NCBI GenBank assembly: GCA_038063375.1
Contig: JBBTVG010000014.1
Span: 1 to 44,638 of the forward strand
Length of the DNA stretch: 44,638 bases
Direction of reading: 5' to 3'
DNA from: Patescibacteria group bacterium
GTDB lineage: Bacteria > Patescibacteriota > Minisyncoccia > Phycocordibacterales > JANLHH01
Shown here: piece by piece, positions 28,316 through 29,730 of the stretch
Position numbering within the stretch: position 1 is the stretch's first letter
How the letters are laid out: each line of letters opens with the position of its first letter
The notes under the pieces: generated by a model
The model's database searches: none
Seen by the model: only the letters and a program-made list of their open reading frames with translations
What the model was told of the DNA's origin: nothing
Program-made: the position numbers and the translations under genes

Positions 28316-28660
28316 CTACTCTTTCTTGAAAAGTGCAATGACTTTTGCGTTGTGCCCTTTAGACTTCTCTGCTGGTTTAGGTAAAGAACCGTTGAGCGCG
28401 CTTTGAAGTTCAATAGCCTTGTTCCAGAACAATTCCACCATGCGGTTCATCCGCGCGACGGGATGTTTGTAGTGGGAAAGTTCAGCGAAGAGTAGGGACT
28501 GCAGAGCGCGCAACTTTAATTGCAGATGGGGAGACGCTCCCTGTATCTGTGCTTCTATCATTGCCCGGGTATGCCGTTCAAACTCCTTCGGATCAGCTTT
28601 GTAGAGTTTGAACAAGTAGTCATAACGCGAACTGACAGTGATCTTGTAGAGAGCTTTCAT
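28316..28660 (-). CDS. Small helical protein, DUF3135-like
   Basis: A 114-residue basic, helical protein. The segment FKLYKADPKEFERHTRAMIEAQIQ...LQLKLRALQSLLFAE...HPVARMNRMVELFW resembles the DUF3135 pattern, recognised from memory only. AAAGGAGGTG precedes the ATG by 5-6 nt, and a TTGACA-16-TAATAA promoter lies about 35 nt upstream. The function is unknown. Confidence 0.65.
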   Translation of the reverse strand: MKALYKITVSSRYDYLFKLYKADPKEFERHTRAMIEAQIQGASPHLQLKLRALQSLLFAELSHYKHPVARMNRMVELFWNKAIELQSALNGSLPKPAEKSKGHNAKVIALFKKE

Positions 28661-28730: not shown

Positions 28731-28765
28731 CAAATAAAAAACCCCGAAGCGGTGATGCTTCGGGG
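28731..28765 (-). terminator. Terminator of the 30-codon peptide unit
   Basis: Perfect 9-bp stem CCCCGAAGC / GCTTCGGGG with a 6-nt loop, then TTTTTTATTTG on the minus strand. Confidence 0.9.
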
Positions 28766-28825
28766 GACAACGCTGTTTATGTAAGCGCTGCGTGTCAGTT
28801 GCGCTGTTGCGCTGCCCTTCGGCTG

Positions 28826-28918
28826 TTAGCCGAACTGGCCGGCGCCGATGCAGAGAGAGATAATCAAACGAGCTCTGTTTGCCGGCATGGGGCCGGCACG
28901 AATGGATGCTTTTTTCAT
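28826..28918 (-). CDS. Small peptide, 30 aa, in its own transcription unit
   Basis: The peptide begins MKKASIRAGPMPANRARL and ends IISLCIGAGQFG: a basic N-terminal half and a short hydrophobic C-terminal half with one cysteine. AGGAGGAG stands 6-7 nt before the ATG. The unit has a TTGACA-16-TATAAA promoter, a leader of about 105 nt with a perfect 10-bp hairpin (AGCTTCGGTC / GACCGAAGCT), and a strong terminator 60 nt after the stop. A hairpin TTCGGCT / AGCCGAA spans the stop codon, and GCCGGC / GCCGGC lies inside the coding part. It could be a secreted or toxic peptide, a leader peptide or a structured RNA with a chance frame. Confidence 0.6.
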   Translation of the reverse strand: MKKASIRAGPMPANRARLIISLCIGAGQFG

Positions 28919-29028
28919 CGCGTACTCCTCCTGTTGGATCGGCAGTTGGATTGGCGCACCGTAGCTTCGGTCGAATGACCGAAGCTCCCCCTCAAAGCCA
29001 TTAAAATGTCAGCTTTAAAGGTATATTT

Positions 29029-29056
29029 TTTATAACAGATACAAAAAATTTGTCAA
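29029..29056 (-). promoter_or_regulatory. Promoter of the 30-codon peptide unit
   Basis: TTGACA (29056-29051), a 16-bp spacer and TATAAA (29034-29029), immediately after the Gam terminator. Confidence 0.75.
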
Positions 29057-29062
29057 GAATAT

Positions 29063-29094
29063 CAAATAAAAAGGCCGATCACGTGATCGGCCTT
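29063..29094 (-). terminator. Terminator of the Gam-like gene
   Basis: The 24-bp palindrome AAGGCCGATCAC / GTGATCGGCCTT, followed by TTTATTTG on the minus strand. Confidence 0.9.
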
Positions 29095-29110: not shown

Positions 29111-29659
29111 CTACACTTTCTCTGACATTTTATCCAGAGAACGGGTCAACACGACCCCTTTGACGGGTTTGACTGTGATGGTGCGGGAGCGCTCCATTGA
29201 GATCCACTTAATGCCTTTCGCGGCACCAGGCTTTTTCTGTATCATCTCTTTATCAACTTCTTTGATGACACGCACGCAGTCACGAAATCCTTTTCGTTCA
29301 AGTGCTCTGACCGCCTTCTCCTCATCAAGCACTGTCACTTTAGGAAGCGCCGCCAATCGGCTCTGGATTACTCCGGTGGAAAGCTCGATCGTTTCCTTTC
29401 CTTTGTTCACGAGTCCTTTCCAGTTGGGAAGCGCGAGACGAAGCAGATCATTAAACAATTTTTCCCGCCTTTTTTCATGCGGACTGATCTTCCCCTGCCC
29501 TTCTTTGTGCAACTGTGTGATTTGTTTGTCGTACTCTTTTTTGATGGAACGGATTACTTCTCCTTCTTTTCCGATCTCCTCCACATATTTTGCCAACCGC
29601 TTAAGCATGCCGGCCATCCGAGAAAACGCTTTCTCTACCTTCTGCCTTGTTGTTCCCAT
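29111..29659 (-). CDS. Mu-Gam-like DNA-end-binding protein
   Basis: A 182-residue protein with a helical N-terminus (KRLAKYVEEIGKEGEVIRSIKKEYDKQI) and a C-terminal part (IELSTGVIQSRLAALPKVTVLDEEKAVRALERKGFRDCVRVIKEVDKEMI) that fits the Gam host-nuclease-inhibitor family, whose Mu member binds double-strand ends and is Ku-like. This assignment is by pattern only. I chose the ATG at 29659, with AAAAGAGGTG 6 nt upstream. TTGACT-16-TAGTAT promoter and own terminator. No other phage genes are nearby. Confidence 0.7.
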   Translation of the reverse strand: MGTTRQKVEKAFSRMAGMLKRLAKYVEEIGKEGEVIRSIKKEYDKQITQLHKEGQGKISPHEKRREKLFNDLLRLALPNWKGLVNKGKETIELSTGVIQSRLAALPKVTVLDEEKAVRALERKGFRDCVRVIKEVDKEMIQKKPGAAKGIKWISMERSRTITVKPVKGVVLTRSLDKMSEKV

Positions 29660-29702
29660 ATGAAACACCTCTTTTGAAAGATCATGTATGAATACTAGCG
29701 CC

Positions 29703-29730
29703 ATACTACTCCCCCCAAAAAGGAAGTCAA
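29703..29730 (-). promoter_or_regulatory. Promoter of the Gam-like gene
   Basis: TTGACT (29730-29725), a 16-bp spacer and TAGTAT (29708-29703). Confidence 0.6.

Follow-up and report, generated by a model that had tools for sequence, protein, structure and literature searches.

A self-contained transcription unit on the minus strand of the window, the 44,638-nucleotide stretch of DNA analyzed here, was found to hold a 30-codon frame. Sequence comparison identifies this frame as a real small-protein gene and not a chance frame, since the same gene is found in relatives of another family, where it lies at a different place in the genome. The gene has no existing name: no Rfam family matched the unit above the gathering threshold, and the peptide matched no profile in Pfam or PHROGs. 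With somewhat better than even confidence, we regard the unit as an autonomous small-protein gene whose RNA ends play a protective part. The host genome is 702 kb and 98.7% complete; its size and content suggest a member of the small-genome candidate phyla.

The unit and the two genes that flank it are composed as follows:

29111-29704, Mu Gam-like gene (Pfam PF07352), on the side of the unit opposite to the DUF3135 gene.
29029-29056, minus strand, promoter: TTGACA (29056-29051), 16-bp spacer, TATAAA (29034-29029), with TG ahead of the -10 box.
28989-29021, minus strand, leader hairpin 1: 11 bp with an 11-nt loop.
28963-28986, minus strand, leader hairpin 2: perfect 10-bp stem with a 4-nt loop.
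28927-28932, minus strand, Shine-Dalgarno sequence AGGAGG, 8 nt 5' of the ATG at 28918.
28826-28918, minus strand, 30-codon frame encoding MKKASIRAGPMPANRARLIISLCIGAGQFG: codons 7-10 carry the conserved motif [RTH]A[GDSN]P, TAA ending at 28826.
28880-28898, minus strand, in-frame hairpin TGCCGGC-CCCAT-GCCGGCA: by sequence comparison identical in the same-genus genome G001, in the other family weak or missing.
28818-28834, minus strand, 7-bp hairpin across the stop codon, not kept outside the genus.
28766-28804, minus strand, conserved 3' domain directly upstream of the terminator: GACACGC (28796-28790) pairs with GCGTTGTC (28773-28766).
28804-28801 with 28788-28785, minus strand, possible second stem of the 3' domain (GCGC with GCGC), which together with the first stem makes a candidate H-type pseudoknot.
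28736-28765, minus strand, intrinsic terminator CCCCGAAGC-ATCACC-GCTTCGGGG-TTTTTT: 9 bp and six T.
28316-28660, DUF3135 gene (Pfam PF11333).

A sequence-only reading of this region had described a self-contained unit with promoter, Shine-Dalgarno sequence, 30-codon frame, stop-codon hairpin and terminator, leaving the strand unstated; all of these parts were found, on the minus strand. The promoter, which it called consensus, does carry TTGACA, a 16-bp spacer and TATAAA and agrees with the consensus at 11 of 12 positions, but lacks the final T of the -10 box and was hence not listed by a consensus scan. The leader, given as about 105 nt with a perfect 10-bp hairpin, measures about 103 nt and contains that hairpin, but has two hairpins rather than one (11 bp and perfect 10 bp). 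Both the additional leader hairpin and the 3' domain (28804-28766) are new relative to the earlier description. Immediately 5' of the Shine-Dalgarno sequence lies a tandem, near-perfect 12-nt repeat (GCCAATCCAACT/GCCGATCCAACA, 28932-28955) that is kept in G001. The predicted fold of the RNA has an energy of -119 kcal/mol compared to -88.6 kcal/mol in shuffles (z -5.8), and none of 200 shuffles equaled it.

A bidirectional terminator (29071-29094) is located between the unit and the Gam-like gene, and on the downstream side a separate promoter (28723-28695), which fits the consensus at 11 of 12 positions, serves the DUF3135 gene. In agreement with the earlier reading, a leader of a downstream gene was ruled out by the terminator, by the new promoter that follows it and by a next gene that differs between the families, being DUF3135 in the window's and rpsA in that of G055. 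Relatives of the DUF3135 gene among named genomes are deltaproteobacterial (34-40% identity), which suggests horizontal transfer. The unit resembles tmRNA in being a structured RNA with a possible pseudoknot and a short frame, but differs in having its own Shine-Dalgarno sequence and ATG and in ending at a terminator. Identity with tmRNA was rejected, since the unit has no match to RF00023 and the tmRNA of the genome is located elsewhere (G000:C11:8645-9024).

A blastn search of 98 genomes found the unit in G001 with 79% identity over its length and unchanged gene order, and matched its 3' part in G055, which belongs to another family. When 394 genomes of the order were searched with a covariance model built on the 69-nt 3' domain, five genomes scored 86-101 bits and all others below 30 bits. 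This added G397, from the genus of G055, and the 3' domain is present in 4 of the 16 genomes of that genus. In a phylum sample of 380 genomes the model found nothing more except a single match of 30.9 bits, taken as noise; matches below 31 bits were counted as terminator noise without one-by-one inspection. A peptide-profile search of 158 relatives gave nothing believable beyond the two families. Viral contigs and phage and plasmid collections gave 0 matches, and a phage or plasmid origin was rejected. The window genome has one copy of the unit by DNA and 3'-model searches; a scan for further units in this genome accepted only -10 boxes with a final T and thereby missed the window unit itself.

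The order of parts was identical in all copies of the unit. Its location differs by family: in the window's genus it lies between the Gam-like and DUF3135 genes, whereas in the genus of G055 it is flanked by rpsA and a gene that by eye is metal-hydrolase-like. No neighboring gene is common to the loci of both families, which leaves no clue to a partner. The promoter element TTGACAAAT..TGTATCTGCTAT[AG]CT recurs in relatives and is 91% identical in G001, and the homologues of the other family have TATACT or TATGCT as the -10 box. A hairpin at the position of leader hairpin 1 was also found in G001, G055, G260, and G283. Leader hairpin 2 differs in sequence in the other family, yet a hairpin of 9-11 bp persists. 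The stop-codon hairpin (28834-28818) is smaller in the sister species and absent from the other family.

Six further genomes of the genus of G055 have short frames in the rpsA slot without the 3' domain. G391, G361, and G326 keep promoter, Shine-Dalgarno sequence, a frame of 25-38 codons, motif and terminator; the 5' hairpins and the 3' domain are missing, and the leaders fold no better than shuffles. The short frames of G305, G344, and G123 are more divergent. G376 has promoters without a clear frame, and G399 has neither.

Other elements were observed around these loci. In genus g55 the region about 100-300 nt upstream of rpsA (L072-L083, L085) contains a leader that is conserved and apparently structured (..TTAATAACAAGC..AACCCT..CCCGCTTG..), and four sources of it (L072, L074, L080, and L083) had no match in Rfam. 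Between the first unit and rpsA, L074/L075 and L077 carry another short-frame unit that ends in GWDG (MDGDASITFGEGWEEINNDGWKEEGWDG; MNNARDGPHFFSFNSKGWDG) and may represent a further family of small peptides. Upstream of rpsA in G376 (L081) are two promoter-led, G+C-rich stretches with terminators and no convincing frame, possible non-coding RNAs. In a third family, L128 (G249) has a very similar promoter followed by a 33-codon TTG-start frame (MKKRKNFVGFSQDANYVYVKTTFNHAAGAFTSE) without the motif.

By comparison of the units, the frame appears to be their common core, and it is probably translated. In all five distinct full-length copies a Shine-Dalgarno sequence and ATG are followed by an open frame of 30-39 codons, and the frames of the ten motif-bearing units span 25-39 codons. 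Shuffling gave a chance of about 0.2 per unit for a length of 24-40 codons, the product over six diverged units being 6e-5 if independence is assumed. The motif [RTH]A[GDSN]P, which was picked after inspecting the peptides, occurs within the first 18 residues in 10 of the 12 peptides compared to 0.07 expected, and in 20,000 rounds of shuffling the count never rose above 2. Within the motif, the Ala and Pro codons differ between copies in their third letter alone; since selecting the motif by itself fixes the first two letters, this means that the DNA is not frozen and nothing more.

Between the window and G001 the identity is 81% in the frame, 91% in the leader and 92% at the 3' end. The synonymous excess predicted by the sequence-only reading is absent: substitutions in the frame fall 7/7/4 on codon positions 1/2/3. 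A stretch of about 30 nt with the RAGP codons and the perfect hairpin is unchanged, and the G001 frame holds a 27-nt insertion that preserves the reading frame. A frame less conserved than the RNA ends is expected if the RNA mattered more, but fast diversification of the peptide would look alike. The comparison thus suggests either a peptide that is unconstrained or diversifying beyond the motif or a function borne largely by the RNA, and one close pair cannot decide between the two.

This pattern, together with the strong folding z-score, would fit a non-coding RNA in which the frame is incidental and the folded RNA alone matters. Such an RNA would not be expected to show a started, open frame in every full copy, an insertion kept in frame or a common peptide motif with third-position changes. 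Conserved RNA with broken frames, named beforehand as the mark of a non-coding RNA, was not seen: each copy with the 3' domain has an open frame, and three relatives show the reverse, with a motif-bearing frame and without the structures. We therefore consider a purely non-coding RNA quite improbable.

The sequence IRAGP of the window peptide equals the end of GIRAGP in SecM. RAGP, the SecM core, supports arrest in other contexts (PMC12992588) and is present in the window genome (G000), G001, and G391. A ribosome-arrest peptide would stall near codon 9-10, with the RNA sensing translation. Compared to the SecM/RAPP arrest peptides (PMC10951299, PMC12992588), however, the window motif is close to the N terminus, with just 6 residues ahead of it, and the motif alone is reported to be insufficient. 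The transcript also has no regulated gene downstream, its terminator being followed by the next gene's own promoter. The Arg of SecM-type motifs was reported irreplaceable by published mutagenesis (PMC12992588), yet it is replaced by T or H in five relatives (G055, G260, G283, G326, and G305), and Gly is replaced by D, S or N in other members. The arrest reading fails on the Arg not being conserved and is, in our judgment, very unlikely.

Outside the motif the peptide appears from the alignments to evolve fast and not to be membrane-like. GRAVY ranges from -1.11 to 0.77 across the peptides, the best 15-residue mean is at most 1.49 and no long hydrophobic segment is present; by eye, no signal peptide is apparent. 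The earlier suggestion of a membrane-active peptide did not hold up in the relatives, where the hydrophobic end, the charge and the cysteine are not conserved. The same data bear on a type I toxin mRNA, to which the basic start, the short frame and the structured, stable-looking mRNA would correspond. The relatives' peptides are not hydrophobic, no conserved membrane-spanning peptide was found, and a search for an antisense promoter over the unit found none, so that a toxin-antitoxin system is scarcely credible.

A secreted signaling or antagonistic peptide, pheromone- or bacteriocin-like and under diversifying selection, would account for rapid change outside the motif while the regulatory parts are conserved, and for hypervariable short frames at one locus of genus g55. 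The frequent Gly-rich peptide ends are by eye similar to double-glycine sites. The lack of a long hydrophobic signal segment speaks against secretion, as does the lack of an exporter, modification or immunity gene beside the unit common to both loci, and the substitution analysis is that of a single pair. We find this explanation improbable, and the small protein would rather act in the cytosol.

Between the families, conservation is highest in the 3' domain, with a mean identity of 91% over 69 columns. In the GACACGC/GCGTTGTC stem two pairs are changed on both sides, and the terminator has one compensatory pair across families (five distinct sequences). Pairing holds in 99% of the cells in the alignment of this stem and the terminator, none of 500 shuffles reached the covariation score, and shifting the partner destroyed the pairing. 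The comparison thus indicates that the transcript ends in a covarying structure. The GCGC/GCGC stem would form an H-type pseudoknot with loop AACU, a one-nt joint and the A-rich strand UUACAUAAACA; this stem is only proposed, since it never varies among the copies.

These properties raise the question of a dual-function RNA, encoding a peptide and acting in trans through its 3' domain by pairing with RNAs or binding a protein. The best cross-family conservation lies in this covarying domain, and the conserved positions include the unpaired AACT and ATAAACA, which a mere stabilizer would not obviously need. However, three relatives that share the promoter and the motif are without the domain, as is most of the order. 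We hold a dual function to be possible but rather unlikely. More tentative still is a dual-function family, limited so far to two families of one small-genome order, that combines a diversifying peptide around an [RTH]A[GDSN]P core with a trans-acting 3' pseudoknot-terminator module dispensable to relatives. Known RNAs of this kind with a short frame include SgrS/SgrT, RNAIII, and SR1/SR1P. VcdRP of Vibrio cholerae encodes the 29 aa peptide VcdP (PMC8672173). The window unit is like such RNAs in having a small monocistronic transcript, a promoter and a terminator of its own, a frame of about 30 codons and conserved RNA structure. It has no sequence relation to them and differs in a 3' domain made of a covarying stem and possible pseudoknot that some relatives lack.

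For an autonomous small-protein gene, we propose that the strong promoter would produce a monocistronic RNA of about 290 nt ending at the terminator, and that the strong Shine-Dalgarno sequence would load ribosomes for synthesis of a 30-residue peptide (25-39 in motif-bearing relatives). Near the N terminus of this peptide the core [RTH]-A-[GDSN]-P is conserved; its end is often Gly-rich, and the remainder changes fast. The two leader hairpins, the 3' stem or pseudoknot and the terminator most likely guard the RNA ends from nucleases and would thereby raise peptide output. The folded ends would be accessory, since they are missing in some relatives that share the promoter and the motif. Stand-alone bacterial small-protein genes of less than 50 codons share the promoter, Shine-Dalgarno sequence, short frame and terminator; the window unit differs from these in that its structured ends are conserved in two families of an order with small genomes and in that its peptide has no Pfam or PHROGs match.

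Genes this small often escape automatic annotation, and few small proteins or regulatory RNAs have been described in such small-genome bacteria. The unit supplies a search model that combines 3' domain, promoter and peptide motif. The occurrence of like frames with and without folded RNA ends is also a natural experiment in which the role of these ends can be asked.
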